IMG/VR virus record: IMGVR_UViG_3300046011_002458
Span: 1 to 57,879 of that record
Origin: a virus
Reading direction: 5' to 3' (one strand)
Length of the DNA: 57,879 nt
The position numbers and the translations under genes are program-made. The notes below the pieces were generated by a model. The model was not told the origin of the DNA. It did no database searches and worked only from the letters and a program-made list of their open reading frames with translations. Of the stretch, positions 1,753 through 17,925 are shown in pieces (position 1 is the stretch's first letter; every line of letters begins with the position of its first letter).

Positions 1753-2838
1753 ATGAAAAGACTTCCACGCTTCAGCGAAAAACGCGGCACCAGCAAGAGC
1801 GGCAAGGAGTGGGTGGCCTACTACCACACGCCCAAGGTCGACGGCAAAGTCAAGTGGACGCCACTGGGCAACAACCGATCGGCCGCGCTGCGCAAGTGGG
1901 CCGAGCTGGAGTTCAAGCCTGTGCCCAACGAGGCCGGCACGTTCAACGCGGTGGCCGACCAGTACATGGTTTGGGCCGAGGCCGAGGTCGTCGTTGGCGA
2001 ACTGGCACCGCGCACGATCGCCGACCGCAAGAAGTACCTCAAGGTCATGCGCCCTGTGTTTGGCCAGCACCCCTTCGCCGCGATCAAGTCGTCGGACGTG
2101 GTCACCTACCTGGACGTGCGCGGCAAGACATCCAAGCACAGCGCCGGCCAAGAGCTGCGCTTCCTGTCGGTCATGTGGAACTGGGCCAAGGCCCGCGACA
2201 TTGTGACCACGGCCAACCCGGTGACGGGCATCAGGCTGCCGGGCACCGGCAATCGCATGATCGAGGTGCGGCCGCAGGACTACTGGCTGGTCCACGGCTG
2301 CGGCGATCGGATGGTGCAAGACGTCATGGAGCTGGCCGCCAGGCTGGGCACGCGCCCGCAGGAGGTCTTCGGCCTGACGTGGGGCAAGGTGGACCTGTCT
2401 GCGAGCCCGATCACGGTCAAGGTCTGGATGAACAAGACCACCGGTTTCAAGATCGTCGTTGCCGATGCCGAGCTGGAGGCGCTGATTCAACGCCTACGGG
2501 GCGATCGCGACCGCCCGAAGGGTCACGTACTGGTCGACGAGGATGGGGCCGCCCTGAACCCTGTGGGCGCTTTCCGGTACCGCTTCACCGCAGCACGGAC
2601 GGCGGCCGCCAAGAAAGCCGAAGAGGCCGAGGTCGATCACCAGGACTTCCAACTGCGGGACTTGCGCCCGATGGCCGGATTGGCCATGCTGGATGCCGAG
2701 GGCATGGACGCTGCGCGCCGCCTGCTTGGCCACACCACCGAGCGCATGACGGCGCACTACACCACCAAGCGTCGGGGCTTCGTCAGCAAGTCCGCGAGCA
2801 TCAAGGTTAGAAGTACTTCTAACCCTTCACAAGAGTGA
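1753..2838 (+). CDS. int: Tyrosine-family site-specific integrase
   Basis: The 361-residue protein catalyses attP/attB recombination. An N-terminal arm-binding region (about 1-55) is followed by a SAM-like core-binding domain (about 60-160) and the catalytic domain (about 175-345). Catalytic residues visible are Arg201 (LGTRPQEV), Arg305 in the LRDLRPMAG box (the usual box II His is replaced by Arg302), His327 in LLGHTTERM, and nucleophile Tyr336 in AHYTTKR. No Shine-Dalgarno precedes the ATG; the promoter -10 is only seven bases upstream. The attP candidate lies about 45 bases after the stop, as is usual for phages inserting into tRNA genes. Confidence 0.95.
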   Translation: MKRLPRFSEKRGTSKSGKEWVAYYHTPKVDGKVKWTPLGNNRSAALRKWAELEFKPVPNEAGTFNAVADQYMVWAEAEVVVGELAPRTIADRKKYLKVMRPVFGQHPFAAIKSSDVVTYLDVRGKTSKHSAGQELRFLSVMWNWAKARDIVTTANPVTGIRLPGTGNRMIEVRPQDYWLVHGCGDRMVQDVMELAARLGTRPQEVFGLTWGKVDLSASPITVKVWMNKTTGFKIVVADAELEALIQRLRGDRDRPKGHVLVDEDGAALNPVGAFRYRFTAARTAAAKKAEEAEVDHQDFQLRDLRPMAGLAMLDAEGMDAARRLLGHTTERMTAHYTTKRRGFVSKSASIKVRSTSNPSQE

Positions 2839-2881
2839 TTAAAATGCCCACTCGCAAGTGCTTGTCACTGCTCAGGAATTA

Positions 2882-2936
2882 TGGAGGCGGGGGTCGGAAT
2901 CGAACCGGCGTACACGGATTTGCAGTCCGCTGCCCA
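2882..2936 (-). other. attP: Candidate attP core: 3' half of a tRNA-Cys gene
   Basis: Read on the minus strand, 2936-2882 gives the anticodon arm with anticodon GCA (2921-2923), a T arm containing GGTTCGATTCC, an acceptor 3' strand CCCCGCC, a T discriminator and CCA (2884-2882). The matching 5' acceptor strand and D arm are not found upstream, so it is not a complete tRNA. A partial 3' tRNA copy beside an integrase is the classic sign of an attachment core that restores the host tRNA gene on insertion. A full but degenerate tRNA is the less likely alternative. Confidence 0.8.
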
Positions 2937-2950
2937 AAACTCACAGAAAC

Positions 2951-2966
2951 CCAGCAACCATGCTGG
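2951..2966. repeat. Small inverted repeat beside attP
   Basis: CCAGCA, ACCA, TGCTGG forms a perfect 6-bp inverted repeat 15 bases from the tRNA-like core. No T-run follows on either strand, so it is not a terminator; it could be an arm or accessory protein site of the attachment region. Confidence 0.4.
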
Positions 2967-3003
2967 TACCGGAGGTGGTCAGGCACTCTGATCACTTCTA
3001 ACA

Positions 3004-3013
3004 TATCACAATG
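3004..3013 (+). promoter_or_regulatory. TATCACAATG site (exact)
   Basis: Exact copy, plus orientation, 80 bases before the gp49-like operon. A -10-like TTGTAG follows after two bases but no convincing -35 is seen. It probably controls the 3084-5416 operon. Confidence 0.6.
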
Positions 3014-3083
3014 ATTGTAGGCTGGCGACCCGCATGAATCCTCAACCCACCGCCAAAAAGTTAGAAGCAGAAAGGACCATCCC

Positions 3084-3371
3084 GTGAACATCCCGGAGAC
3101 GAAACCCCAGCGCACAGCCGTGTCGCTGAACGACATTCAGGACAAGGTCAAAAAGACCACCTACACCGTGTTGCCCGACGGCAAAACCACGATCTGCCAG
3201 CTCCACATGGAGAACGGCTACACGATCAACGGCCATTCGGCTTGCGTCGACCCGACCCAATACAACCAGGCCCTGGGCGAGAAGTACGCCTACGAGGACG
3301 CCATCAACAAGGCCTGGCCGCTCGAAGGCTACCTGCTGGCCGAAGAGATTTACCAAAGGAGCCAAGCATGA
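3084..3371 (+). CDS. Gp49/Gp66-like phage protein (N4 gp49 / Sf6 gp66 family)
   Basis: The 95-residue product starts at GTG 3084 after AAAGGA. The segment from about residue 42 to 86 (MENGYTINGHSACVDP, then YEDAINKAWPLEGYLL) carries the family signature. The family is widespread in early or accessory regions of tailed phages with no established biochemical role. It overlaps the next gene by four bases. A 17-codon reading frame (3034-3087) just upstream ends in its start codon and might be a leader peptide, but nothing else supports it. Confidence 0.85.
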   Translation: MNIPETKPQRTAVSLNDIQDKVKKTTYTVLPDGKTTICQLHMENGYTINGHSACVDPTQYNQALGEKYAYEDAINKAWPLEGYLLAEEIYQRSQA

Positions 3372-3889
3372 AGCAGTACATCGGAGCCAAGCAGATTAAC
3401 GCGATGCCGATGACCCGGTCGGACTACAACGATTTCCGCAACTGGATCTTGCCCGACGACGAGGACGGCAACGACGAGGGCTACCTCGTGGAGTACATCG
3501 ACGGCGGCCAGCGCAACACAGAGGCCTACAAGGGCTACGTGAGCTGGTCTCCCAAGGACGTGTTCGAGCGCTCGTACCGCGAGGTCAGCGGCCTGAGCTT
3601 CGGCCTGGCTCTCGAGGCCTTAAAGCTGGGCAAGAAGGTGGCGCGCGCTGGCTGGAACGGCAAGGGCATGTGGCTGTCCCTGTCCGGCCCGCTCGAGGGG
3701 CGCGTCATCGGAGCTGACCAATTCTGGTCGGAGAACAACCGGGAATGGGCGCGCCAGTTTGGCGGTGCAATGGTCTTGCCCTGCATCACCATGAAGACCA
3801 TTAACGCCAGCGGCCGCGAGGCAATCCTCATGGGTTGGCTGGCCAGCCAAACAGACATGCTGTCCGACGACTGGAGCATTGTCGAATGA
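3368..3889 (+). CDS. DUF2829/Tad2-like protein, putative anti-Thoeris
   Basis: The 173-residue product has two parts. Residues about 1-75 are an acidic N-terminal module ending in a YVSWSPKDVFERSY segment. Residues about 78-173 match DUF2829: LSFGLALEALKLGKKVARAGWNG, then GMWL, then LPCITMKT and a C-terminal GWLASQTDMLSDDW. DUF2829 is the Tad2 family, shown to sequester the cyclic ADP-ribose signal of Thoeris defence. The start at 3368 overlaps the upstream stop and has GGAG spacing. Family assignment is firm; anti-Thoeris activity of this member is inference. Confidence 0.85.
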   Translation: MKQYIGAKQINAMPMTRSDYNDFRNWILPDDEDGNDEGYLVEYIDGGQRNTEAYKGYVSWSPKDVFERSYREVSGLSFGLALEALKLGKKVARAGWNGKGMWLSLSGPLEGRVIGADQFWSENNREWARQFGGAMVLPCITMKTINASGREAILMGWLASQTDMLSDDWSIVE

Positions 3890-4527
3890 CCTTCGTCTGC
3901 CCCCTGCCACCCGTCAAGGTGCTGGTCCGGCCCGAGTACCTCTACGACTTTCAGTGCGACGAAAACGCACCGCTGGTCGAGGGTATCTGGTGCAGCGTCA
4001 AGTCCATCAAGGGCGAGGCGTTTCGCTTTGAGACCTACCTGCCCGAGTACGGCGCGCTCTACGACAAGCTGCCGATCAGTGCGTTCAGACACAACGACGC
4101 CCGCCAGCTCGGCGGCGACTTGCCGCTGGACATCCTGCAGATCTGGGATGCGCTGAGCTACCACGTCACGGTGGTCGACAAGCCGCTGCTCAAGGGTCTG
4201 CGTGCGCAGTTCTTCGCCAAGGACAAGCAGATCTACCAAGGCGAGTTCATGTTCACCCTGGACACCTGCAGCCCTGACCCGCGCATCCCCGACTTCGGCT
4301 TCAGCGAGTCGATCGATGAGCACAAGAGCTACAACGTGCTGAAGCTGGACAACGGCCAGTTTGCACTGCAGCCAAACAACCGGTGCCAGTTCTTCGACCC
4401 TGCATTCAACCCGCAGGCCATGAAGCAGCCCGACTTCAAGGTGGCCACCACGAAGTACCGCGTCGAACAGCAAGCCAAATGGCGGCTGGGCGACACCAGC
4501 AATTTCAACTACGAGAGCAACACATGA
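3886..4527 (+). CDS. Conserved-looking phage protein of unknown function
   Basis: The 213-residue product starts at ATG 3886, overlapping the Tad2-like stop. It is a soluble, mixed alpha/beta protein with many aromatic and acidic residues (for example YEYLYDFQCDE near residue 20 and IPDFGFSES near 145). No catalytic motif or membrane segment is visible. It is translationally coupled on both sides inside the 3084-5416 operon. Confidence 0.75.
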   Translation: MTFVCPLPPVKVLVRPEYLYDFQCDENAPLVEGIWCSVKSIKGEAFRFETYLPEYGALYDKLPISAFRHNDARQLGGDLPLDILQIWDALSYHVTVVDKPLLKGLRAQFFAKDKQIYQGEFMFTLDTCSPDPRIPDFGFSESIDEHKSYNVLKLDNGQFALQPNNRCQFFDPAFNPQAMKQPDFKVATTKYRVEQQAKWRLGDTSNFNYESNT

Positions 4528-4832
4528 GCACCACCTATGCCATCGCCAACGTGCAGCACAGCCTGCAGGCGCTGAAGGAAATGATCCCGCCCGAGAAGTG
4601 GAGCGAGACCCCGCTGCCCGTCATCGCCGCCCCAGGCTGGTGGATGGAAGAGCTGCGCACCGAGATGGGCGTCGAGCCAGGCTTTGAGCCCGAGTCGATC
4701 CACGGCTGCGCAGTCATGCGCAACGACGAGGTCACCGAGCCCTGGCTGATTGACCACGACGGCAAGCGCTACCCCATCCTGCCCAAGTGGCAGCGGGCCA
4801 AGGCCGAAGACACAGAAGGCGGTGCAGTATGA
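4524..4832 (+). CDS. Hypothetical phage protein
   Basis: The 102-residue product starts at the ATG overlapping the previous stop. It has an amphipathic N-terminus and a proline/tryptophan-rich middle (PLPVIAAPGWWMEELR); the C-terminus is lysine-rich. Family not recognised. It belongs to the coupled operon ending with the MazG-like gene. Confidence 0.7.
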   Translation: MSTTYAIANVQHSLQALKEMIPPEKWSETPLPVIAAPGWWMEELRTEMGVEPGFEPESIHGCAVMRNDEVTEPWLIDHDGKRYPILPKWQRAKAEDTEGGAV

Positions 4833-5416
4833 GCACAGCAATCGTGACATTCGAGGACGCCGGCGACGAGGTCAAGATCAGCATGAACTTCGGCCCCGAG
4901 GGTGGCCAGGAGACCAGCGGCGCGCACCAGATGGCCGTCTCTGCTGTGCATGGCCTGCACAAGGAGCACGTCTCCAACTACCACCGCACGGCGGCCTGGC
5001 TGAAGGCCTGCGGCAAGGAGCCCAACCCCGAGGACCTCATGGTTCAGATCGGCTGCCACATCGAGGAGGTGTGCGAGTTCCTCGAGGTGCTGCGCACTGA
5101 CAAGGACGGCTACGCCAAGCTGCTTGATCGCACGCGCACCGACCTCGAGTGGTTCGCATCGAAGCTCAAGCGCCGGGAGCTCACGGTGTACATCCCACCA
5201 CACCTTCGTGAAGACGCCCTGGACGCCCTGTGCGACGCCGAGGTGACCGGCAACGGTGTGGCCTACATGGCCGGGCTGAACAAGCCCTCAGCCGACCAGG
5301 CTGTGCTGAACAGCAACGATGCCAAGCTAGTGGATGGCAAGCCCGTCATCCTCGAGGGCGGCAAGATCGGCAAGCCCGAGGGCTGGAAGCCACCGGACCT
5401 GCGATCGTTCGTCTAA
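4829..5416 (+). CDS. MazG-like nucleotide pyrophosphohydrolase
   Basis: The 195-residue product has the MazG-like helical core with the metal-binding pattern EEVCEFLEVLR (about residues 79-89) and ALCDAEVTGNGVAYMAG (about 133-149), followed by a C-terminal tail (SNDAKLVDGKPV and a KPEGWKPPDL end) typical of the phage members. MazG-type enzymes hydrolyse (d)NTPs or related signal nucleotides. It is the last gene before a strong terminator. The small MazG-like protein at 1132 is in the neighbouring operon. Confidence 0.8.
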   Translation: MSTAIVTFEDAGDEVKISMNFGPEGGQETSGAHQMAVSAVHGLHKEHVSNYHRTAAWLKACGKEPNPEDLMVQIGCHIEEVCEFLEVLRTDKDGYAKLLDRTRTDLEWFASKLKRRELTVYIPPHLREDALDALCDAEVTGNGVAYMAGLNKPSADQAVLNSNDAKLVDGKPVILEGGKIGKPEGWKPPDLRSFV

Positions 5417-5418
5417 AA

Positions 5419-5441
5419 GAAGGGGGCCTCGGCCCCCTTTC
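5419..5441. terminator. Bidirectional intrinsic terminator between convergent operons
   Basis: A perfect GGGGGCC / GGCCCCC stem with a two-base loop, preceded by AAAAGAA and followed by TTTCTT, lies between the plus-strand MazG-like gene and the 3' end of the giant minus-strand gene. It can serve both transcripts. Confidence 0.9.
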
Positions 5442-8400
5442 TTATTTCGGCACCACTCGCAAGTACTCGCGGTTCATGTCGGTCGAGAGCTTGTCACGCT
5501 CCACCTGAAGCTGCTTGCGCTGCAGCTTCTTCTCCGCGTCGGTCATGTCCTTGTCTTTGATGATCTCGATCTCGCGCTTGCGGATCATCGTCGACTGCTT
5601 CTGGTAGATCTCCTGCATCCCAGCCAGACGCATCAGGCGCTCTTCCTTGTCCTTGAGCTCAGGGTCTAGGCCCAGCTTCTGCTGCGCCTTCACCTCGTCG
5701 GACAGGGCCTTGACCTCACGCATGCGATCGCCGGCGGCCTTGATGTTGGCCCCCTCGTCGACTTCGCCGTAGAACTTGTTCAAGAACGGGATCTTGTTGG
5801 CCTTCAGGTCATTGCCGTCACCAGTCATCGCCACGACCGCCGTGCCAACCTGCTCGACGAAGGTGCCCAGGCCGCCCGTGGTGGCGCTGATCAGGGTCTG
5901 GATGGTGCCAGGTGCCACCGAGGTCTCCACGCCCATGATCTCGCCAGCTTTGGCCTCGTTGCCACCGCCCAGCTCGTTCAGTGCCTTGGCGATCTTGGCC
6001 GACACGGAGTCCTGCTGGCTGGTGAACATGCGCTCAGAGTCTGGGCGCTTATCGAACGGCGACTTCTGCGGAGACGATGGGGTGCCGAAGGTGCCGCGCT
6101 CAGTGATGATCTGGACCGGCAGGTCCACCAGGGTGGGCATGGCCGCCAATAGCACCTGGACGCCATCAGAAACGTCCACAGCGCCACCAAACGGGTTGAT
6201 TGAGCCCAGGACAGTGGACGTCATGTGCAAGGCCGCCTTGGTGGGTGTCATGCCACGCTTGGGGTCTTTCGCGTTGCGCAGGACGTCGGCCATCACGTAG
6301 CCCGCGTTGGGGAACATATTGAAGCCGTACTGCACAGGGATCGTCACGTAACGGCCGCGCTTGCCCACGCGATCGATGCCGCCTGCCAGGGCGTCGCCCG
6401 GTGGCAGCATGATCACGATGTTGCGCTCCTTCACGTAGCTCGGGATCTTGTCCCAGTAGGCTTCGCCGTCGTCGTCTTCGCCGCCGGCCGAGGCACCGTA
6501 CAGCGCCAGCATCATGCCGACACCAGTCACGCCGGCCATGGACGCCTGCACCGCTGGGCTCTTGAGCACCTTGAAGAGCTGGGCATTGCCCTGCACTGCG
6601 GCGTTGAAGAACAGGTACAGGTTGTTCAGTGCGCCGCCCCACTCGCCCTTGCGGTTGAAGTTGGTGGTGCCGTCCTTGGCCAGGATCGCAGCCTTTGCTG
6701 GGCTGTTGCCTTGCTCGCGCGAGGCTTGGTACAGCGCAAACCGGGTGGCGTTCTCTGAGGCCGAGCCCATGAACTCGAGCACGCGCAACGTGAGCTTGGC
6801 CAGCTTGAACGGGGGCAGCGACTTGACCGCTTCCCACGGGTTGCGTGCGGCCGCGCCAGCGAGCAGCAGCTCGTTGCGCAGGTCCTGGTTGATGTCGTCC
6901 AGCGAGCGCATGAAGAAGCCACCCGTGATGCCGCCGGCAGAGCGGAACTCTGCGAAGCGGGCATCCATCTGCGGGTTGCCAAACAATTTGTTGCTGGTGC
7001 CGGACACGCCGGCCTCTCGCCGGGCCGAGGCCATGAAGGCCTTGGGGTAGGAGGCCAGGTAGGTGGCCAACCCCTTGGGGCCAAGCTCAGCCAAAGCCGA
7101 GGCAGTGCCGGACCACAGCGCATCGCGAGGGATGTTGATCGCAGCGAATGCCGGGTTGTACTTTGTGAGCACAGCCCGCATCCAGTTGTTCCACCAGCCA
7201 GTCATGGCCAGGGTGGCGCGCTCGAGGCCGCTGGTCTCGTCCTTCCAGGCTTGGCGCAGTGCGCGTGTCAGCTCTTTGTCAGCGAACTTGATGTAGACCT
7301 GCTGGCCGCCCACCTTCACGCCGATCGTGTCCTCGCCCTTCTCAATGGACTTGGTGTACTGCACGGTGCCCTGGGCCTTGTTGAAGGCAGGCTTGCTGCG
7401 CTCGACATCCACACCCCACAGGTCTGGGTCTGGGTTCGACAGCACAAAGTCCAGCAGGACCTTGGCCACGTCATTCTTTTCGACGCGGCCAATCACGCGC
7501 TCGTAGTCGCGGATCACGTTTTCGATCAGGTCGCCGGCCTTGGACTTGCGGCCCATGGCGCGAACCGTCTCAGCACCGCGCACGTTGACGCCACGGCCAA
7601 CGCCTGGGCGTGCGACACCGGTATCGGCGTCGACGTTCTCGAAGCCACGCAGTGGGATGTAGTTGTCGTAAGCACCCTCGAGCGCCGTGAACTCGTCCGG
7701 CGTGATCAGGCCTTCGCTGAGCATGACCTGGCGCGTGGCCGAGGTGATGCCCATCAGGGCCTGGTGCAACTCCTCGAACTTCGCGGTGTCGCCGGCCAGG
7801 TCAACCATCTGCAAGATGTTGTCGGCCTCGTCGTTGGTCATGCCAGAGCCACCGTCAGGCATGCGCTTGTTGATGCTGGCGATGTAGGCGTTGCGCTCTT
7901 TGGCGTGCTTGGCGTAGCTGTACATGGACAGCTCGTCCATGTCGATGCCGTACTCAGCCGCCTTGTCGAGCATCGGCTTGACGATGTCGTTCTTGAAGTC
8001 GTCGATCGCTGCCTGGATGCGGCCAGGCATCAGGGTGTTGGCGTCGTAGAAGTTTTGCGCTTCGCCGACTGTGCCGCCCTTGGCCTTGACGGCCTCGATC
8101 ACGCGCTTCATGCGAAGCGCGTCGTCCTGCAGTTTGATGCGTGCGGCGTCGACGTTGCTGGTGGCGTCGACGTCGAAGTTGGAGCCGATCAGTTTTTGGC
8201 GGCGGTTGCTTCGGACTACGGCGTTTCCTTCTTCGACAGATCCGCCCCGCCCTTGAAGGCCTCCTCGACCCCCTTGCACATCTTCTTGAACTCGAGGTCC
8301 AGCTTCAGCTCTTCCTCCTTGGTCAGCGTAACCTTTGATGGTCGAGCGGTAGACTTGCTCGCTGATTCTTCCGGCCTTGAACTCTTGTTCGGTCGCATCT

Positions 8401-11400
8401 TGTAACCTCTCTTTCAATCCTGATTTTATCACGCTTGTGATATTTGCAAGCGGCACGATTTGAGCGTTGCCCGCCCCCTTTGAGTTGTCGATTGCAAACA
8501 GTCGGAAGCGGGGGTTGTCGCCAAACTCGTCCTGCAATTTGCGCACAGCCTCGCTTGAGCCTGCGTGGCCCTTGGTCAGGGCGTCGATGGTGACGGTCCG
8601 GCCCTTGCTCATCGCGCGGGTCAGCACGCCATTGCGCAGCGCTTCGACCGGCTCGCGGTAGATGTAGGCGATCAGCACGCGGTTGCCAGAATCGAGCGCC
8701 ATCTGCACGTTGCGGCGGGCCTTGTCGTAGCTCGAGAGCGTGCCATCCAAAATGGTGTGCGCCTTGTCCAGCTTTGACTTCAGCAATTCCTGTGCGCTCG
8801 ACTTGCCTGCGCCGCCACCGCCGGCCATGAATGCCACGGTGCCCTGCGGCTGGGTCTCGAGTCGAGACTCGAACATGCGCTGGGTCATGTCGCTTGCGGC
8901 CTCATGCACCTCGGGTGCGCGGCTGCGGTTCTGACGGTACTCGGGCGACAGCTCGCGCACCAGGTCGGTATCGAGCAAGCGGCCACCGTCGGAGCCCTTG
9001 AGGCCCGAGTACTCGGCCAAGGCACCGTCGAAGTCCTCGTCGATGCGAGCCTGCAGCGCAGCACCGATGCTGCGATTGCTGCGGCGGATGTCGGGATTGG
9101 TTGCGTCGAACGCGCCTTGAGCATGCTTTGGATTCAGGAGCAGTGCGCCCTCGTCGCCAAGGTCGGCCAGGATCAGCCAGCCGTCGACGGAATACTTCTT
9201 GATGTCCGAGCGATCGCCGTACTCCATGGCCTGCTCTACGGTGCGCGTCACCCAGATCGCGTCGGATGCCGGGATTGAAGCAAGGTCAACGCTCAGCTTG
9301 CCGGCGGATTCGCTGGCCAGCTCGCCGATGTCTTTATTGCCCAGTTCCTCGCTTTCGTACCGAACCACATCGGCCACCGTTGCATTTTTTGGTGGGTTGT
9401 AGTTCAGGGCTCGATAGCCATCACCGCGCCATGTGCGGTCTGTGCTTCTGCGGATGTCTGGGCGGTTGCTTGCCATGACGCGGCCAAACTGGAACGACGA
9501 GCCTGCATCGGCCAGTGCCTGGTCCGCGACTTCGGCCTCGCTTGCTTTGACGCGGGCCTCGCCAAACTCAAGACGGAACGATGGGGCCACCTCGGCCAGC
9601 GCTGGGCGGGCCTTGATGATGCTGACCATCTCGTTGCCCTCGGGCCGGCGCACCAGCTCGTCGCCTGCAGTGCGCGTGCGGTTGACGGCGACTGCGCGCT
9701 CGATCTTGCGCGGCACGATCGTCTGGCTAGAGGTTGTGCCTTGGTACTTGACCGGGACGTCGGAGTTGAGAACGACGGCCGTGCCTTGCTCGCGGTTGAC
9801 GTAACCACGGAAGCCGGCATCCAGGATGGCCGACTCGAACTCGTTGGGGGTTGCGGGGAAGGTGCGAGACCCGGCTGCCGGGTCGTACAGGTTGCTCAGG
9901 TCTGCGTTGTAGACGTGGCCACCGAGACCGAGCTCAGGCTGGGGGATGCCGCCGGCGACAGGCAGGTAGAAGTAGACGCGGCGCTTGATGCGGGCGTCAA
10001 CGCTTGGCTGGGCCAGGCGTGATTGCTCAGCGCCCTTGATGCCCGAACCGAAGCTGACGCCAGACAGGACACTCAGTCCCCCTTGCTTTCCGTAGTGGAC
10101 TGCCCCTGCAACCTTGATTGCATCGCCTTGATCGCCCCCAGCGCTGGATCTTCCGGCAGGTTCTGCAGGTCGGGCAGCGCGGTTGCTGAATTGGATTTTT
10201 CCTGCGTCGCCCCAGTCGTACCGCTCGCTGAAGTCGTCGAAGACTCGCTGGACCCGGGGCGCGAGATAAGCTCTGGCCCAGTCAAGAACATCGGATCTTC
10301 CTTCGGCACTGGCCCTCGCAACGTAATCTTGCCCATTTTGATTTTCCTTCCAATTGTTGGTCATCATGTCGCCGCTGGACGCAAACCACTGCGCGTCAGC
10401 ATCCGGCAACACAGATTCAGCCACACGCAGAATGTCCGCGTGCAGCTTTTCATTTGTGATGATACCAAAATTCACAAGCCTTATACCGCTTGGGGAGCTG
10501 ATAAAGGCGAATTGATCCTGCCAGCCCTCATGGCCATTGTCAGCCATCCACTGGCCGACAGCCGCCTCGAGGTCCGCCACTTCGCGGGGGTTGAGTGGGC
10601 GGCCAACCTTGATGTCCAGGCCATTGGCGTCGCGCTTCGTGCTTGAGTAGAACGGGCGGTGCCAGCCCACGCCCTCTTGGCGGGCCACCAGGCCAGCCAC
10701 GGCAGCGTAGACGTTGAGCGCCTTGGCCTGGGCGGGGTCGACGTTGGTCTTGCCGGCATCGCCCTTTGCTGGGGCCATGGCCACACCGAGCTGCGTGCTT
10801 GGCGAGATCTCGCCTTGCCACACGCCGGGGGCCAGGATGTCGTTGTCGACAAGCAAGCCCAACCGCATGGCCAACAGGTCATTGCCCTGCTCATCAAGGA
10901 ATGCCCGCTGCACAGCCTGCTGGAACTCCACCTGCTGCGCATAAGGCGCGTCGTGGATGCCGGGCAGAACACCCGTTGTGCGGCCAGGGCGAGCCTCAAA
11001 GGAGACCTGCCCGATGTGGCGCTTGAGGCCATCGCCAAAGTCGAACTTGGCCTGCTGTGTGTCGTCCTTTGTGACGTCGTGCGCGAAGGAATACTTGAGC
11101 CAGTTGTCGCGGTGCTTTTGCTTGTCGATGATGACCCGTTCCTTGCCCTTGCCGCCCTTGCCCGGCACGAACTTGATCCAGCCCTTCTTTTCGCTGGTGC
11201 GCTCGGTTTCTTTCTTAACGCCCTTGTTCTCCATGCGGGCCTTCATGGCCACCCAGATCGCGGCCTGCACCTGCTGCGGCTCCCAGCCCAGCTCTTGCGC
11301 CAAGCGGTTGGTCTCGTTCTCCATGAAAGAGTACTGCGTCGCAGTGGGCGCATCGGTCTCGTACTGACCGGCGCGCATCATCCACATGTCGATCGTCGCG

Positions 11401-14400
11401 CCCTGCTTGCCGGCGGTCGATGGGTCGATCTCGCGCAGCAGGTTGAAGAAGAAGTTGCCGGTCTTCTCGCCGGACCAGAATGCGTCGACGTCGTCGAGTG
11501 CGTTCTTGGCTTTTTTGTCCATGTCGCCGGTCTTCACGCTGATCGGCTGGCCAGCCTTGTACTGAGCCCACGCACGCAGCGCGAACGTGGAGTTGGCGTC
11601 GACCTTGGCTTGTGGCGAATAGATGGCCAGCAAGGCCACGAACTTGCGCGCTTCGTTGACGTCGCCACCCACCATCTTCAGCACTTCGCGGCTGCTGTTC
11701 TCGTACCAGTAGCGGCCTGGCGCACCCTCGTCCGCGAGCTGGCGCAGGATCTTGCGCAAGGTCGGGATCTTGCCGGGCGTGTTGAACTTCTCAGGCGCAC
11801 CCAGGTACTTGCCGTCTTTCATCGGCAGCTTCTCGGTGACCTGGCCGCCGCGACTGTAGGCGATGTTGCGACCCTCGAGCGCGGCGCGCACACGAGGCGC
11901 TGCGGCGTTGGTGAACACCACGCCTTCCTTGGTGACGCGGCCCACTGTGCCCTCGGGCATGGCCGCGCGGATGGCGTCGCTGTCGCCGAACACGGTGAGC
12001 GATCCATCTTTGGCGGTGGCCACCTCGTAGTCGCCGAACTTCTCGGTCTTCGCGCGGCGGGCCATCATCACGTCGCCAGTCACAGCGGCGTCGGGCGTCA
12101 GGCCCTGCTCCTGCATGGCCTCGGCGTAGGCAGTGGTCAACAGGTCTCGAGCCTTGGCCACGTCTGTGATGTACGTGTTGACGAACTCGTCGCCGTACTC
12201 GCTGCGAGCACCAGTCAGGATTTGGTTGAGCTTGGACAGGATGGCCTTGGCCACCTCGGCAAACTCGGCGTTGCCCATCTTTGCGCGCAACTCTTCCCAG
12301 AAGTCGGCTCGCTTGCTGATCGCCTGAACCATGAATGCGGGGATCTCTTCGTCGAGCTGAGCGTCGGTGTAGTCGAACACCTGCTTGAACTCGTTCGTCT
12401 TGTCCTCACGGAACAACTGGCGCAGTGCCGTGTTGAGGGTCGCACGCTTGTCGTCTGACAGGCCGTGGTAGGCCTCGTGCATCGTGACGAACAAAGGCGC
12501 GTCAACGGTGTCGTCGGCGATCATGATGTGCTTGCCGCCAGCTCGATTGATCAGGCCATTGGGCATCGACATCTCGGGACCGGACACGCGCGTGATCACA
12601 GTCAACGTCTTGCCAAGCAAGCGGGCAACAGTGCTGGCCAGCTTCTGGCCGTCGTTCATTTGACTGACCGACACTGGCGCAACGTCGAGGCCTGTCTCGG
12701 CCTGCAGCGCAGCGCGCACCGACTTGATTGCCCCAATCGGCGCGGGCAGCGCCAGCTTCAGTCCGGCAGGGACAGCACCTTGCACATTGGTCGGTGCTGC
12801 TGTGCCGACGGCTGCGGTTGCTCCGGCTGCTGGTGCTTCTTGTCCTTGCGCTTGGCCTTGGATGGCTTGAGGGGCTTGAGTGCCACTGACGTTCTCCTGA
12901 GTTTCGGAATAACCGGCCAAGCGGAACTTGCCGTTGGCCATCGACTCGACCTTCCAGCCGAGATCCGGGAACATGCGCTGACGACCTGGCAGCGCCTGCT
13001 GTGCATCGCCTTGCGTCACGTAGCCGTCGCCCTTGCGGCCGAACCACTGCTCGGCCGGCTGGACTACAGCATTGTTATTTTCTTGGCTCGCGATCGAGGC
13101 CTCGGTGCGTGCCAGCAGATCCTGATCAGTGGCCCGATCGAACGGGCGATTCAGGCCGGCAGTCGGTTGCCCGGCTGCGCCTGGAACAGAGACAGCCTGT
13201 GGAACATTGGTCCCAGCAAGTCCGGCAACTCCACCTCGCTGCCCGGTGGCGTCATTGACATCAAGTCCTGGAATGTCCAGGCCTCCGCCACGCTGATCGC
13301 TTGCGAGCTCACCGCTTCCTGCAGCTGCCAATGGAGGAATGCTTGTTGCGCTGACATCGGTTGTCTCCGGTGCGGTTGGAACGACAATGTCCACCAGGCC
13401 AGCCTGCTGTGTGGGCGAACCTGCTGGGGTGAAATTGATGGGTGCGGCTGGGCCGGTGTCGCCTTGCTGACGCGACGTCAGGCGCGGGTCGATCAGTGTG
13501 GGGTCGTAGTTGTTGACGTCGAAGAGCGCCACAGCTTGGCGCTCTGCTGCGATGCCAGGCGTCTGCGCTGCGCGGGCCTCTTGGAACTGGCTTGCAGCTC
13601 CGGCAGCACTGAATGGGGCTGAGGTTACGAGCGCCGTGGCCATGGCCTCGGGCACACCCTCTGTCAGCTTTTGGTTGGGGTCGACCGTGCGCGAGATGAC
13701 GTTGCCGCCAAACTGCGTGCCGCCCTCCTCGAACTGCTCGCCGACCAGGTCCTTGGCCAGCATCTTTCCAGCGCCGGCAAACGTCAGAGCTTCGGCTGTG
13801 GCCTTTCCCAGGCCCCTGGAGGCGATAGCGGCCTCGGCACCCATAAACCCCAGCAGACCCAGCGGCGCGGTGATCAGCGCGGCCATACGGGCCTTCGTGG
13901 TGGCAATCTCTTCGATCGCGTCCTTGCTGGACTTGCCTTCGGCGGTCAGCTTCTGGTAGTCGGGGTTCTGTTGCCACACGCTCAGCGGCGTTTGCTTCGG
14001 GTCGGTCAGTTTTTCGTACACGCCACCGGCTGCGTCGCCGCCAGCCATGACCATGGACGCACCCACACCGCCGGCGGTCGTGCCCGCGACGCGCGCGCCT
14101 GCCTGGATGGCTCCGCCGCTGATCGCTTCAGCCAACGCCACAGTGGGGCTGGCACGGCCAGCCAGGCCAACGGAGCCAGCGGTCGCTGCGCCAACAAAGC
14201 GGGAGGCTCCCACGACACCCAGGAAGTTGGGCACCTGCTTCACGGCCTCAGACAGGCCAAGCGCTGGGCTGGTGACAAGCTGCACAACGGTGGCGGCGTA
14301 CTTGTCGAGGAACCCGTCTTCGTTCAGCACGCGCTCGCGCAGCTGTTCGCGCTGAGCCTTCAGCACGCCGGACTCTTGAGCCTGCAATTCCTTCTGTGTG

Positions 14401-15083
14401 GCGCTCAGCGATGCCGCGATGTCGCTGCTTGGGGCGATGATGTTGATCGGCAGCTGCACCAGGCCAACCGCGCCTTGGCTCAGGTTGGACAGTGTGTCGG
14501 CCGCCCACTCGCCGGCGCTGCGGAACTCCTCGGCCTTGGCATCGCGAGCTGCGCGGATGTTCTCTGGCTTTTTGGCCGCATCGGCCAGGTCGGCAAAGCT
14601 CTTGTCGCCCCGGGCGTCCATGGCCTTGACGACCTTGTTGACCGTCGGGTCCTTGCTGACCATCTGGCCACGGCTGCTGCGCACCGAGTCGGCTGCAGAT
14701 TGCGCCTGCGAACTGATCGGGCCTGCGCCGTAGGACAGGCGTCGATCGATGTCGGCCTGCTTTTCCTCGGCCGTGGGGACGTAGTCCTCCATGACGCTCT
14801 TGAACTTAGGCCGCAGGGACTCGCCCACGCGCTGAATGATGCCGGGCTGAGGTGGTGCCTTGTAGCGCGCGGCCAGTCGGGCGGTCTCGTCGCCGGTGTC
14901 GATCACTGGCGCGGCCGCCGGGGCCGGAGCCTCGCCGCCGGACAGGAAGCCGATCACCTCCGATGCGCTGTAGCCAGACTGCAACGCCCCGCTCAGATCA
15001 AATTTATTCTCTGTGGCCAGGTAATCCGCGATCTCTTCGTCGGAATACCCGGAGCTGCGGGCTGCGTTGATGTCGAACTTCAT
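5442..15083 (-). CDS. 3213-residue polyvalent internal virion protein
   Basis: One uninterrupted frame covers one sixth of the genome, in the position of internal virion/ejection proteins, last in the late operon. Visible modules: two N-terminal repeats of about 24 residues (5-22 and 28-48, core SGYS); an HEAYH zincin motif (869-873) with an acidic EEIPAF segment near 912; a conserved helical domain (about 1090-1290, DUF7178-like); a further domain at about 1357-1600; two regions resembling ADP-ribosyltransferase-like domains (about 1700-1780 and 1885-1985); a zeta-toxin-like P-loop kinase (Walker A GGGGAGKS 2088-2095); and a 900-residue helical C-terminus with a hydrophobic stretch near 2845-2866 and a final coiled coil. 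NPDIRRS-type linkers recur between modules. Such ejected polyvalent proteins are thought to act on host defence or metabolism; specific activities are inferred. Confidence 0.9.
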   Translation of the reverse strand: MKFDINAARSSGYSDEEIADYLATENKFDLSGALQSGYSASEVIGFLSGGEAPAPAAAPVIDTGDETARLAARYKAPPQPGIIQRVGESLRPKFKSVMEDYVPTAEEKQADIDRRLSYGAGPISSQAQSAADSVRSSRGQMVSKDPTVNKVVKAMDARGDKSFADLADAAKKPENIRAARDAKAEEFRSAGEWAADTLSNLSQGAVGLVQLPINIIAPSSDIAASLSATQKELQAQESGVLKAQREQLRERVLNEDGFLDKYAATVVQLVTSPALGLSEAVKQVPNFLGVVGASRFVGAATAGSVGLAGRASPTVALAEAISGGAIQAGARVAGTTAGGVGASMVMAGGDAAGGVYEKLTDPKQTPLSVWQQNPDYQKLTAEGKSSKDAIEEIATTKARMAALITAPLGLLGFMGAEAAIASRGLGKATAEALTFAGAGKMLAKDLVGEQFEEGGTQFGGNVISRTVDPNQKLTEGVPEAMATALVTSAPFSAAGAASQFQEARAAQTPGIAAERQAVALFDVNNYDPTLIDPRLTSRQQGDTGPAAPINFTPAGSPTQQAGLVDIVVPTAPETTDVSATSIPPLAAAGSGELASDQRGGGLDIPGLDVNDATGQRGGVAGLAGTNVPQAVSVPGAAGQPTAGLNRPFDRATDQDLLARTEASIASQENNNAVVQPAEQWFGRKGDGYVTQGDAQQALPGRQRMFPDLGWKVESMANGKFRLAGYSETQENVSGTQAPQAIQGQAQGQEAPAAGATAAVGTAAPTNVQGAVPAGLKLALPAPIGAIKSVRAALQAETGLDVAPVSVSQMNDGQKLASTVARLLGKTLTVITRVSGPEMSMPNGLINRAGGKHIMIADDTVDAPLFVTMHEAYHGLSDDKRATLNTALRQLFREDKTNEFKQVFDYTDAQLDEEIPAFMVQAISKRADFWEELRAKMGNAEFAEVAKAILSKLNQILTGARSEYGDEFVNTYITDVAKARDLLTTAYAEAMQEQGLTPDAAVTGDVMMARRAKTEKFGDYEVATAKDGSLTVFGDSDAIRAAMPEGTVGRVTKEGVVFTNAAAPRVRAALEGRNIAYSRGGQVTEKLPMKDGKYLGAPEKFNTPGKIPTLRKILRQLADEGAPGRYWYENSSREVLKMVGGDVNEARKFVALLAIYSPQAKVDANSTFALRAWAQYKAGQPISVKTGDMDKKAKNALDDVDAFWSGEKTGNFFFNLLREIDPSTAGKQGATIDMWMMRAGQYETDAPTATQYSFMENETNRLAQELGWEPQQVQAAIWVAMKARMENKGVKKETERTSEKKGWIKFVPGKGGKGKERVIIDKQKHRDNWLKYSFAHDVTKDDTQQAKFDFGDGLKRHIGQVSFEARPGRTTGVLPGIHDAPYAQQVEFQQAVQRAFLDEQGNDLLAMRLGLLVDNDILAPGVWQGEISPSTQLGVAMAPAKGDAGKTNVDPAQAKALNVYAAVAGLVARQEGVGWHRPFYSSTKRDANGLDIKVGRPLNPREVADLEAAVGQWMADNGHEGWQDQFAFISSPSGIRLVNFGIITNEKLHADILRVAESVLPDADAQWFASSGDMMTNNWKENQNGQDYVARASAEGRSDVLDWARAYLAPRVQRVFDDFSERYDWGDAGKIQFSNRAARPAEPAGRSSAGGDQGDAIKVAGAVHYGKQGGLSVLSGVSFGSGIKGAEQSRLAQPSVDARIKRRVYFYLPVAGGIPQPELGLGGHVYNADLSNLYDPAAGSRTFPATPNEFESAILDAGFRGYVNREQGTAVVLNSDVPVKYQGTTSSQTIVPRKIERAVAVNRTRTAGDELVRRPEGNEMVSIIKARPALAEVAPSFRLEFGEARVKASEAEVADQALADAGSSFQFGRVMASNRPDIRRSTDRTWRGDGYRALNYNPPKNATVADVVRYESEELGNKDIGELASESAGKLSVDLASIPASDAIWVTRTVEQAMEYGDRSDIKKYSVDGWLILADLGDEGALLLNPKHAQGAFDATNPDIRRSNRSIGAALQARIDEDFDGALAEYSGLKGSDGGRLLDTDLVRELSPEYRQNRSRAPEVHEAASDMTQRMFESRLETQPQGTVAFMAGGGGAGKSSAQELLKSKLDKAHTILDGTLSSYDKARRNVQMALDSGNRVLIAYIYREPVEALRNGVLTRAMSKGRTVTIDALTKGHAGSSEAVRKLQDEFGDNPRFRLFAIDNSKGAGNAQIVPLANITSVIKSGLKERLQDATEQEFKAGRISEQVYRSTIKGYADQGGRAEAGPRVQEDVQGGRGGLQGRGGSVEEGNAVVRSNRRQKLIGSNFDVDATSNVDAARIKLQDDALRMKRVIEAVKAKGGTVGEAQNFYDANTLMPGRIQAAIDDFKNDIVKPMLDKAAEYGIDMDELSMYSYAKHAKERNAYIASINKRMPDGGSGMTNDEADNILQMVDLAGDTAKFEELHQALMGITSATRQVMLSEGLITPDEFTALEGAYDNYIPLRGFENVDADTGVARPGVGRGVNVRGAETVRAMGRKSKAGDLIENVIRDYERVIGRVEKNDVAKVLLDFVLSNPDPDLWGVDVERSKPAFNKAQGTVQYTKSIEKGEDTIGVKVGGQQVYIKFADKELTRALRQAWKDETSGLERATLAMTGWWNNWMRAVLTKYNPAFAAINIPRDALWSGTASALAELGPKGLATYLASYPKAFMASARREAGVSGTSNKLFGNPQMDARFAEFRSAGGITGGFFMRSLDDINQDLRNELLLAGAAARNPWEAVKSLPPFKLAKLTLRVLEFMGSASENATRFALYQASREQGNSPAKAAILAKDGTTNFNRKGEWGGALNNLYLFFNAAVQGNAQLFKVLKSPAVQASMAGVTGVGMMLALYGASAGGEDDDGEAYWDKIPSYVKERNIVIMLPPGDALAGGIDRVGKRGRYVTIPVQYGFNMFPNAGYVMADVLRNAKDPKRGMTPTKAALHMTSTVLGSINPFGGAVDVSDGVQVLLAAMPTLVDLPVQIITERGTFGTPSSPQKSPFDKRPDSERMFTSQQDSVSAKIAKALNELGGGNEAKAGEIMGVETSVAPGTIQTLISATTGGLGTFVEQVGTAVVAMTGDGNDLKANKIPFLNKFYGEVDEGANIKAAGDRMREVKALSDEVKAQQKLGLDPELKDKEERLMRLAGMQEIYQKQSTMIRKREIEIIKDKDMTDAEKKLQRKQLQVERDKLSTDMNREYLRVVPK
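8427..8442. promoter_or_regulatory. Palindromic operator-like site inside the giant gene
   Basis: TATCACGCTTGTGATA is a perfect 16-bp palindrome with the same TATCAC/GTGATA arms as the early operators. It encodes residues about 2214-2219 (N-I-T-S-V-I). It may be a chance match, or an intragenic repressor site. Confidence 0.35.
10471..10486 (+). promoter_or_regulatory. Intragenic copy of the integrase operator/-10 sequence
   Basis: TCACAAGCCTTATA here (10472-10485) is identical over 14 bases to the integrase promoter (1731-1744), but it lies inside the giant minus-strand gene in plus orientation and has no convincing -35. Confidence 0.3.
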
Positions 15084-15117: not shown

Positions 15118-16035
15118 TCAGCGGTTGAAGCTGCTGAGCGGTGGGCGAGTGCCAGCATTATCGCCGGTCCTGGGTGCGGGCGTGCCGCCTGTCAAACGCT
15201 CAATTGCTTTCTGGCGTTTTTCTGCTTCCGGCAACTTGCCAAACGCGTAGTCGTTCTTGCTCATGGTGCTGACCAGGCTGGCCACCTGCTTGTCGAAGTC
15301 CATGCCACGGCCCAGGACCTTGGTTGAACCATCGGACATGACGGCGACCTTGTTGCCTTGGTCGTCGGTGTACGTGCTGCGCACCTTCGAGCTGCCACCA
15401 GCACCACCACTGCCGCCAGCCGGCTTGTTTGCGCGGATCGTGTCGGTCTTGTTCTGCGAAGTGATGCGCTCTTCCATCAGGTCCAGGCGGCGGTCCTGCT
15501 GCTCGCCGCGCTTGCGGTCGATTGCATCCTTGTCGGCGCGAGCCTCTGCGTCGACCGTTGCCTTGTAGGACTCGCGGCCTTCTTTGATCGCAGAGCTCGA
15601 GCCACCCAAGCGGCGGATCTCGTTGAGCACGTCTTCCTTCTGCTTGCTGTAGCGCTCAACGTAGCGGTCAGCCCCCTCGAAGTTGCCGACCTTTTTCTGG
15701 TTGTAACTCTCGTTAAAAATGTTGCGCAGCTCTTCTTCGGAGGCGTCGGTTTGCCCGACGTCCGCCTTGAACTTGTCGAAGCGGCGCTGGTCACCAATGG
15801 CCGGCGCGTTTTGCTCGGCCTGCGAGTAGATGTCCGCGTCCTTACGCAGCTTGGCCTCCTCGCGGTCGAGCTTGAGCTGATCCAGCGCCTCCTGGCGCTT
15901 GAGCAGCCGCTCTTCGCGCAAGACCTCGCGCTCGTCTTGGCGATCCATCTCGTACTGGCGCATGCCCGCCTGAGCGAACGTCTGCCCAGCGTCTGCAATG
16001 CCCTTGCCGATACCGGCCAGAATCAGTCCGCTCAT
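15118..16035 (-). CDS. Coiled-coil internal virion/structural protein
   Basis: The 305-residue product begins with a short amphipathic MSGLILAGIGKGIADAGQTFAQAG segment, then a long highly charged coiled coil (about 30-200, rich in E, R, K, Q), a Gly/Ser linker and a Lys/Ser-rich tail. This organisation, between membrane-active and giant internal proteins, suggests a component of the ejectosome or inner core. It overlaps the upstream gene's stop by an ATGA. No enzymatic motif is present. Confidence 0.75.
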   Translation of the reverse strand: MSGLILAGIGKGIADAGQTFAQAGMRQYEMDRQDEREVLREERLLKRQEALDQLKLDREEAKLRKDADIYSQAEQNAPAIGDQRRFDKFKADVGQTDASEEELRNIFNESYNQKKVGNFEGADRYVERYSKQKEDVLNEIRRLGGSSSAIKEGRESYKATVDAEARADKDAIDRKRGEQQDRRLDLMEERITSQNKTDTIRANKPAGGSGGAGGSSKVRSTYTDDQGNKVAVMSDGSTKVLGRGMDFDKQVASLVSTMSKNDYAFGKLPEAEKRQKAIERLTGGTPAPRTGDNAGTRPPLSSFNR

Positions 16036-16550
16036 GCTGGCACCTCTTCGCCTTTCGCAGCCTTCTCAAACACGGATGGGTCGACGCTGTTCATCGCCTG
16101 CTCGAGCTGGCTGGTGTCCATGCCGTTCTCGCCGAGGTATCGCAGCAGCATTTGCTTGAATGCGTCGGCGATGTCGACGGGCGACATCTCGAGGCCGGCG
16201 GCGTCGGCGATCTCGACAACCTCCTCGAGGATCTTCATGCCAAGCAAAGCCAGCAATTCGTCGGGCACGCGGCCGTCGGTGCGCTCATCGACGACAGACG
16301 TCATCTCGTAGGCGATGTCTGACACGCCGTCAATGACTGAAGGCGCAGACTTCAGTTGATTGGCCACGTCCTTGGCCGCGCCGTTGGCGTACAGGGCCTC
16401 CATCGCCAGGGCGATAGCCTCCTGAAACGCTGGGTCGTTTTCGTCGGGCTCTGGACCCTCGGACTCCTCACCCATTGCGCCCGCAGGCATTTGCTCTTCT
16501 TCCGCTGCCGGAGCACCGGCGGCCATTTGTTCTTGAATCAGTCCAGCCAT
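16032..16550 (-). CDS. Acidic structural/virion-associated protein
   Basis: The 172-residue, very acidic protein has an Ala/Glu/Pro-rich N-terminus (about 1-45) followed by a helical domain with several ELLALLGMKILEEVVEIAD-like amphipathic segments. It sits among the internal virion genes. Function is unknown; a chaperone-like or core-filling role is possible. Confidence 0.7.
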   Translation of the reverse strand: MAGLIQEQMAAGAPAAEEEQMPAGAMGEESEGPEPDENDPAFQEAIALAMEALYANGAAKDVANQLKSAPSVIDGVSDIAYEMTSVVDERTDGRVPDELLALLGMKILEEVVEIADAAGLEMSPVDIADAFKQMLLRYLGENGMDTSQLEQAMNSVDPSVFEKAAKGEEVPA

Positions 16551-16562
16551 GATGTGCTCCTA

Positions 16563-17483
16563 TCAGCCACGGTAGTAGTAAGGGTTGTAGACGGGGAAGT
16601 TGTTGTTCGTCATCGTCTGCGGGGTCGACATGCCGCGAGCAACAAGGCCAGTCGGTGGGTTCTGCGCTTCGTACTGCGCGCGATAGCGAGCGCCGATTGC
16701 CTGAGCCTCAGCCACTGGGTCGTAGGCGGGGGCTTGGCCAACTTGGCCAGGAGCACCGGGAACCGCTGCGCCAGCGTTCGCCTGGTTTGTGAAGTCCTGC
16801 ACGCTGGCCTCGTAGCGAGCGCGCTGATTTGCAATCTGCTGCTCCTCGTAGGTGCGCTGCTCGTCCTGAGCCTTCTGCATGCCAGCACCTTGGATTGCGC
16901 CACCGAGAAGCTGCGTGCCGCCACTGATCGCGGCAAACTGACCCATGGGGCTCAGGCTACCGATCAGGCCTTTGGCCGCAGGCGCTGCAGCGCCGGCAGC
17001 TCCGGCAGCTCCAGTGGTTGCCCCAGCAGTCCCGGCAGCGCCGGCGGAACCTGCGGCTGCGGTACCCGCGACTTCAGCACCAGTGACTGCGGCTCCTGCC
17101 GCGCCCGCTGCGGCTGCAGTGTTCGCAGCCTGCAGCGCAGTGGTGGTGCCACCAAAGCCCGCAGACAAAGAGCTGCCGGCGGCGCTGAGGTTGCCAGACA
17201 GGGCCGAGCTCCAGGCGGTGGACAGACTGGTTGCGGCGTTGGCCACGCCAGTGCCCATGCCGGATAGGAAGCTCCCTCCGGCCGCCGATGAACTGAAGCC
17301 GCCCGCTAGGGCTGCACCTCCGAAGTAAACGGCCGCAGCGACCAAGATGATTTTGCCGATCTTGGAGGAGGCGATTTTCTTCACGCCATCCACGACGGCG
17401 GTGGCCACCTTCTTCACGACGTTCACGACGCCCTTGACGACCTTGCTGATCGCACGGCCAACGCTCTTGACTAGCTTACTCAT
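16563..17483 (-). CDS. Membrane-active internal virion protein
   Basis: The 306-residue protein starts with a Val/Lys amphipathic helix (about 1-50), then a strong hydrophobic stretch (IGKIILVAAAVYFGGAALAGG, about 42-62), then a long Ala/Gly/Ser-rich region with small-residue repeats. The C-terminal third is Gln/Asn/Pro-rich. This is the pattern of podovirus ejection proteins that form a conduit through the cell envelope. Its start overlaps the stop of the GNAT gene upstream. Confidence 0.75.
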   Translation of the reverse strand: MSKLVKSVGRAISKVVKGVVNVVKKVATAVVDGVKKIASSKIGKIILVAAAVYFGGAALAGGFSSSAAGGSFLSGMGTGVANAATSLSTAWSSALSGNLSAAGSSLSAGFGGTTTALQAANTAAAAGAAGAAVTGAEVAGTAAAGSAGAAGTAGATTGAAGAAGAAAPAAKGLIGSLSPMGQFAAISGGTQLLGGAIQGAGMQKAQDEQRTYEEQQIANQRARYEASVQDFTNQANAGAAVPGAPGQVGQAPAYDPVAEAQAIGARYRAQYEAQNPPTGLVARGMSTPQTMTNNNFPVYNPYYYRG

Positions 17484-17923
17484 GATTCATTTCCTCTCAC
17501 GTAACCAAGGTTGAGTGACTCACGAGTGAAGCCCAACCGATTAAACAACTTGACCAGACGCGGATCTGCGCCTGGCTCCAACTCGATGACCGCCAGCTTG
17601 ATGGCCGATCGACTCTTGACCCACTTCGCGAACTCGCGCAGCAGCGGCGCGCCAGCGCCAGGCACTCGGGTGTAGTACAGCAGCACCGAGCACTGCATCT
17701 TGTGAAACCAAAAGCCCTGCTGCACGCACGCGACCACCGCCGCCACCACCTCGCCGTCCTGCTCCGACACCCACACAAAGTGAGCTGGGTTCAAGCAGGT
17801 GCGAACCGTGTCCGCCATCGCCGCCTTGTCGATCTTGACCGGCAACGGATCGATGGACACAGACTCCACCGCGATGTCCACGATGGCATCGATGTCGGCG
17901 GGTGTGGCCTTGCGAAAAATCAT
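17480..17923 (-). CDS. GNAT-family N-acetyltransferase
   Basis: The 147-residue product has the GNAT fold pattern: N-terminal IFRKATPADIDAIVDIA, a central beta strand AHFVWVSEQDGEVVAAVVACV, a VPGAGAPLLREFAKWVKS segment in the acetyl-CoA loop/helix position (the usual Q-x-x-G-x-G/A is degenerate), and a C-terminal KLFNRLGFTRE motif. ATG 17923 is preferred over TTG 17929. GNAT enzymes are recurrent in the late operons of podoviruses; the substrate is unknown and may be a virion or host protein. Confidence 0.8.
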   Translation of the reverse strand: MIFRKATPADIDAIVDIAVESVSIDPLPVKIDKAAMADTVRTCLNPAHFVWVSEQDGEVVAAVVACVQQGFWFHKMQCSVLLYYTRVPGAGAPLLREFAKWVKSRSAIKLAVIELEPGADPRLVKLFNRLGFTRESLNLGYVRGNES

Positions 17924-17925
17924 GC

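Follow-up and report, generated by a model that had tools for sequence, protein, structure and literature searches.

A giant phage-type polyvalent protein with constant ends, permuted cargo and a predicted HhH-GPD-like DUF7178 module

The giant gene and its modules

The IMG/VR virus record IMGVR_UViG_3300046011_002458, whose full 57,879 nucleotides form the stretch analysed here (the window), carries on its minus strand an open reading frame (ORF) of 3213 codons at positions 5442-15083, which begins with ATG, has no internal stop, and is exactly as an initial annotation of this DNA had delimited it. The ORF is real: it is uninterrupted, kept in relatives and placed last in the late operon, with a terminator after it, and chance is ruled out because relatives are conserved across hundreds of phage contigs. 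Judged by its domains, its product is a well-supported member of the phage-type polyvalent proteins; that class is known, and what is new is the reading of one module, the Pfam family DUF7178, as HhH-GPD glycosylase-like.

Several unrelated biochemistries are combined in this one polypeptide: a zeta-type kinase, DUF7178, a zincin metallopeptidase motif, an ADP-ribosyltransferase (ART)-like region and an LPD38 domain. Pfam recognises LPD38 (PF18857; residues 2877-3101, 1.6e-21, 77.7 bits against a cut-off of 27), DUF7178 (residues 1119-1282, 4.6e-13) and Zeta_toxin (2.1e-10), three PHROG families cover residues 2309-3213, and an NCBIfam search of the protein gave no matches. The setting is that of a late, virion-related gene, with terminase, portal, capsid and tail genes upstream on the same strand. 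By comparing a little over 20 relatives found through the C-terminal part, together with others found through the inner modules, we divided the protein into an N-terminal scaffold (residues 1-560), the zincin module (780-1012), DUF7178 with a companion domain D (1005-1640), modules E (1650-1790) and F (1895-2000), the zeta kinase (2000-2292) and a C-terminal scaffold (2290-3213). All lie on the minus strand, where the first base of residue r is window position 15086-3r. The 'several unassigned conserved domains' of the initial annotation were correctly noted, the best conserved being DUF7178 and D, but it missed that DUF7178 is a predicted HhH-GPD module, and this is probably the most informative module of all.

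Both ends are constant among relatives, while the inner cargo is exchanged and reordered. The zeta module precedes E in three relatives (L003, L010, L112) and follows it in the window protein; E precedes DUF7178 in five (L027, L034, L036, L040, L058) and follows it in the window and in L030, L038 and L045; and other relatives carry ART-PolyVal, InPase, PBECR5 or MuF_C as cargo. One position is fixed: the zincin leads in every one (31 of 31) of the non-redundant proteins in which it is accompanied by at least one further mapped cargo module, although the naive chance product for this order (2e-14) overstates the evidence, as the sequences are related. In several further relatives (L012-L017, L022, L062) two ORFs take the place of the one, and the C-terminal scaffold is in the second, sometimes preceded by an ART module. 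These ORFs lie about 480 bp apart (for example L017:2824-8184 and 8666-12673), and many of the second ORFs begin with a conserved segment, 'M..CTYTF..(D)G..TIKG...LKAFL..GG(L)D'. A 3606-residue relative with the order DUF7178, D, ART and C-terminal scaffold is encoded in the genome of a bacterial isolate, Halomonas sp. NO4 (L282, 3243-14060), and is a possible experimental source.

DUF7178 and its companion domain

DUF7178 (residues 1095-1325, window 11109-11801) and domain D (residues 1340-1640, window 10164-11066) are the best conserved cargo, with 41-83% identity in relatives; D follows DUF7178 in all 80 IMG/VR loci examined, and in polyvalent contexts the two are always linked. An AlphaFold model of residues 1005-1800 is confident (predicted local distance difference test score, pLDDT, 86). 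Its first-ranked Foldseek match in the PDB was the archaeal 8-oxoguanine DNA glycosylase AGOG, a member of the HhH-GPD superfamily (probability 1.00, E=0.046, target TM 0.46, 16% identity), and a second AGOG entry stood at rank 7. The HhH-GPD arrangement is seen in the model, where a short hairpin immediately ahead of a helix holds Lys1207, and Asp1232 comes directly before the helix that follows. Neither residue varies in any of 51 homologues or in a set of 14 sequences extending down to 21% identity, and free-standing DUF7178 proteins of 194-198 residues are no exception. The catalytic pair of AGOG is Lys140/Asp172, equivalent to K249/D268 of hOGG1, and its linker is unusually long (PMC3397491, PMC9638937); the lysine and aspartate of DUF7178 occur in the matching order, likewise with a long linker between them. 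Unlike AGOG, DUF7178 is fused with D in a giant protein, and its likeness to AGOG is significant by fold only.

Profile alignment by hhalign of DUF7178 with EndoIII/MutY places K1207 and D1232 on K120 and D138 of EndoIII, at a probability of 1.3% that is not significant alone; the score of 20.5 lies above the 95% point of 200 column shuffles (17.3), whose maximum was 21.0. The Pfam models for HhH-GPD (PF00730) and AGOG (PF09171) find no match in DUF7178, and a sequence-only PDB profile search with the DUF7178 and D unit returned nothing usable. Annotation made independently points the same way: stand-alone actinophage proteins whose matches to the Pfam DUF7178 model reach 1e-57 to 1e-62 bear the labels 'N-glycosylase/DNA lyase' and 'glycosylase'. 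We consider it likely that DUF7178 has the HhH-GPD fold, whereas we would put DNA-glycosylase/apurinic-apyrimidinic (AP) lyase activity at about an even chance.

The alternative for this module is that the fold is HhH-GPD and the chemistry is not, so that DUF7178 binds or processes modified nucleotides, or handles DNA in some other way. Some phage enzymes of HhH-GPD fold are thought to serve thymine hypermodification. The modest Foldseek E-value, the motif 'GEKT...TIDMW' in place of a canonical HhH-GPD sequence, and the fact that DUF7178 in the giants is always accompanied by the uncharacterised domain D would all suit such a role, but the invariance of both catalytic positions across the whole family, free-standing proteins included, speaks for catalysis, and we regard a non-glycosylase as rather unlikely.

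For domain D itself, fold searching gave weak ferredoxin-like matches only. We considered it as a 2H phosphoesterase on the strength of a weak match to 2fyh (E=0.026) and rejected this, there being a single conserved histidine and no second HxS/T motif. DUF7178-fold proteins of about 200 residues also occur free-standing in isolated phages, as in BFVD entries G8EYE9 (Synechococcus phage S-CBP42) and A0A2I6UH43 (Salinibacter phage M31CR41-2), with target TM of 0.65-0.67, and in one contig (L050 5830-7899, the contig of L221) DUF7178 and D are divided among three short frames, so that this copy is broken or frameshifted. No paper in the collection searched names DUF7178. In Pfam, no LPD model matches the DUF7178 and D unit of the window, nor is a glycosylase listed in the main text of the survey of polyvalent proteins by Iyer et al. 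(PMC5512222); a glycosylase-like module appears to be new to the class.

Remaining cargo, scaffold ends and gene neighbourhood

The zincin-type module (residues 780-1012, window 12048-12746) contains the sequence HEAYH at residues 869-873, which the initial annotation had read as a metallopeptidase motif. That motif stands: H869, E870 and H873, with a downstream E913, are kept in 32 of 32 aligned relatives while overall identity falls to about 20%. A PDB profile search and an hhalign comparison with the virion RNA polymerase of phage N4 (N4 vRNAP) gave no significant match to a known family, and membership of the N4 vRNAP clade was not borne out; we assign the module as a putative zincin at the level of the motif.

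The P-loop kinase proposed in the initial annotation was borne out. The module (residues 2000-2292, window 8208-9086) scores 40.8 bits against the Pfam Zeta_toxin cut-off of 22.3, and has a Walker A sequence GGGGAGKS at residues 2088-2095, containing the predicted catalytic Lys2094, followed by D2113. A profile of six relatives matches the Neisseria zeta_1 toxin (PDB 6eph/6epi) at 2.6e-15 over 250 residues with the Walker A lysine in place, and on these profile matches the module belongs to the zeta family, although in the window it forms part of a giant protein. In zeta enzymes already characterised, UDP-activated sugars are the substrates of phosphorylation and wall synthesis is blocked, and kinase activity on UDP-sugars would be expected here as well. 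Iyer et al. (PMC5512222) list zeta-like kinases for conjugative elements and MuF fusions; unlike their examples, this one sits within an LPD38-type phage protein. Pfam and PHROG scans of the neighbouring ORFs revealed no antitoxin.

Two ART-like regions had been claimed, and one of them holds up as plausible. Module E (residues 1650-1790, window 9714-10136), a mobile module, has in alignment an invariant histidine in strand 1 (H1663) and a nearly invariant tyrosine in strand 2 (Y1706), and shares with ART-PolyVal (PF18760) both these residues and an 'AG(F/Y)DGY' end signature, the 'AGYDG' end of that family (a weak profile match, 29 columns, probability 82%). No third residue of the H-Y-D/E active-site pattern of ART-PolyVal and Tox-ART-HYD2 was identified in E. 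True ART-PolyVal domains are separate modules in relatives and, unlike them, E matches no Pfam ART model; a sequence-only PDB profile search yielded nothing usable, and E is probably ART-like on the residues it shares. Module F (residues 1895-2000, window 9084-9401) is a rare region with only one close relative in IMG/VR, and its faint likeness to the ART strand-2 signature (hhalign probability 8%) led us not to accept it as a second ART; the Pfam ART-PolyVal model matches neither E nor F in the window protein. Matches to designed helical repeats, asparaginase and ETV6 in the PDB profile searches were dismissed as compositional or chance. The structure prediction and fold search that the initial annotation had proposed as a check led to AGOG for the model of residues 1005-1800, with no ART among the top matches and no clear PDB counterpart for the C-terminal scaffold.

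The N-terminal scaffold (residues 1-560, window 13404-15083) is common to relatives with different cargo and opens with two copies of a repeat of about 25 residues, 'FDxxxAxxxGYSxxEIxxxL' (residues 3-49). The same repeat (window 14934-15083, residues 1-50) also starts some relatives (L046, L112, L015, L138) and is possibly a packaging or assembly tag.

The C-terminal scaffold (residues 2290-3213, window 5445-8216), which includes LPD38 (window 5781-6455) and corresponds to PHROG families 14770, 616 and 10691, has relatives in 522 stretches of IMG/VR. Over roughly 900 residues it is homologous to DarB-like giants from BcepIL02, DC1 and BcepMigl (27.9% identity, up to 4e-66), the profile aligning to residues 3765-4660 of the 4667-residue BcepIL02 gp70, while none of the N, zincin, DUF7178, E or zeta modules of the window was found in that protein. 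Related modules are present in Stx-type, Vibrio, Ruegeria and Bacteroides phages and in an archaeal virus, Methanosarcina virus MetMV (MK170447.1 40141-42549; 27% identity, 2e-51), and the scaffold therefore crosses the boundary between bacterial and archaeal hosts. A profile search of genome contigs with this scaffold found no close relative. Its AlphaFold model is fairly confident (pLDDT 81; predicted template modelling score 0.81); Foldseek against the PDB gave no clear match, only improbable transporters at probabilities below 0.1, a sequence-only PDB profile search gave nothing usable, and the model suggests a probable new fold.

Gene order on the same strand shows that the giant gene closes the late operon, as the initial annotation had it. 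The terminase lies at 36 kb, a portal-like head-tail adaptor at 33-35 kb, the major capsid gene at 30-31 kb, tail fibre and tail genes at 22-29 kb, and a lysis cassette with a GH19 endolysin at 19-21 kb, before a block of probable internal proteins and the giant gene itself. Directly past its stop codon stands a terminator-like stem-loop with a GC-rich stem (5419-5440, listed by the scan on the plus strand), and when this is read on the minus strand TTCTTTT comes next. The giant gene of BcepIL02 is likewise annotated as last in its late operon with a terminator following, and the upstream block of the window (15118-18948, minus strand) is in a position comparable to the virion-associated genes before DarB in that phage. 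The block encodes proteins that are probably virion-associated too: a charged one of 305 residues, one of 172, one of 306 with a hydrophobic N-terminal segment, a GNAT protein of 149 and a Gln-rich one of 340. The claim that these neighbours are membrane-active was upheld by hydropathy for the gene at 16563-17483 and failed for the other four of the five immediate upstream neighbours. The GNAT-like acetyltransferase (PHROG 1249, 17480-17929), sitting among internal-protein genes, could be an additional effector carried in the virion.

Past the giant gene, at 1753-5416 on the opposite strand, come an integrase, a member of a family annotated as ferredoxin (PHROG 3704, 5.7e-82) and a MazG-like pyrophosphohydrolase; the integrase, at 1753-2838, indicates that the source phage is probably temperate. 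In the tail region, the protein encoded at 22289-23329 has a C-terminal C1q-like domain (PF00386, 3.2e-6), and its end is common to a 963-residue tail protein at 23681-26572 (PHROG 15750).

Delivery, processing and the role of the cargo

The proposal that the protein is of the polyvalent class and probably ejected with the DNA is well supported by LPD38, by gene position, by C-terminal homology to virion-proven DarB-like giants and by the swapping of cargo among relatives. The phage-type polyvalent proteins of Iyer et al. (PMC5512222) are likewise very large, multi-domain, encoded in the late region and equipped with zincin, ART-like and LPD38 domains. Among the Bcep22-type DarB-like giants, which include BcepIL02 gp70 and have a C-terminal part homologous to that of the window protein, JC1 gp69 is 79% identical to the DarB-like protein of Bcep22 and was represented by 51 unique peptides in CsCl-purified virions (PMC9144972). 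From this family homology, together with gene position, we infer that the window protein would be packaged and ejected in the same way.

The best explanation of the locus, and in our judgement a likely one, is an ejected, self-processing polyvalent carrier with DNA-acting, ART-like and zeta cargo. The two scaffolds, of about 560 and 900 residues, would secure the protein's place in the virion and its exit together with the DNA; the zincin would probably cut the chain after entry, and the remaining modules could then act separately. DUF7178 may act on DNA soon after infection begins, removing modified or damaged bases or cutting at them, module E may modify a host target with NAD+, and the zeta kinase may phosphorylate UDP-activated sugars and so slow wall synthesis. 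The idea that zincins cut polyvalent proteins into working units is that of Iyer et al. (PMC5512222), and it fits both the zincin-first order and the relatives that are split into two ORFs; processing of the chain by its own zincin is what we would expect here. The domain content suggests that several host processes could be disarmed in this way. The most specific form of this proposal, that DUF7178 and D constitute a virion-delivered DNA glycosylase/AP lyase within a self-processing giant protein, excising modified or damaged bases, is more tentative and somewhat doubtful.

Several points weigh against the self-processing carrier. The zincin matches no known family significantly, N4 vRNAP included, and no cleavage site is known; module E has no formal family match; and virion presence and host entry are supported at the family level, by JC1 gp69, rather than by direct evidence for the window protein. 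The AGOG match has a Foldseek E-value of only 0.046 and the sequence-only searches fall below significance (hhalign 1.3%; PDB hmmsearch for AGOG 0.62), while the glycosylase labels on the actinophage homologues may themselves rest on fold searches. Finally, the scaffold is split into two ORFs in some relatives, so that a single polypeptide is not required.

The chief rival account of the whole protein is that it is mainly structural, an internal core or tail-extension protein with a role in ejection like that of T7 gp16, whose enzymes aid DNA passage or assembly without any attack on the host; the zincin would then be a maturation protease, and the zeta and ART modules vestigial or linked to assembly. 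That no parts are kept more widely than the two ends, that the C-terminal scaffold occurs with other cargo or little mapped cargo in many phages, and that the gene is located in the morphogenesis operon are all consistent with such a role. What makes it improbable is that the catalytic residues of several unrelated enzymes are preserved, and that relatives exchange and reorder their cargo, a behaviour typical of conflict effectors but needless for a structural protein. Still less probable is an antirestriction role, in which the whole polypeptide would protect incoming DNA against type I restriction in the manner of P1 DarB: relatives with the C-terminal scaffold are annotated as DarB-like antirestriction proteins, and P1, according to literature cited in PMC9144972, depends on DarA and DarB in its virion to withstand type I restriction by the host, but the common part is the C-terminal scaffold only, the DarB-like name rests on partial homology, and neither Pfam nor PHROGs finds here any module of the sorts, DNA methylase or helicase, that are listed for antirestriction polyvalent proteins.

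Through the carrier as we propose it, DUF7178, a Pfam family without a name, gains both a delivery vehicle and an enzyme class that can be tested. If the glycosylase reading is true, the target could be modified DNA of the host or of a rival, which would be broken, or else lesions and defence-made base adducts, which would be cleaned from the incoming phage genome, and base excision would join the known chemistry of ejected effectors. For the giants of this clade a rule of construction emerges, with fixed ends, a protease-like module first and the remaining cargo permuted. Assays of single modules can now test directly the old conjecture that many enzymes are delivered at once by polyvalent proteins, which are then cut apart by their own zincin.
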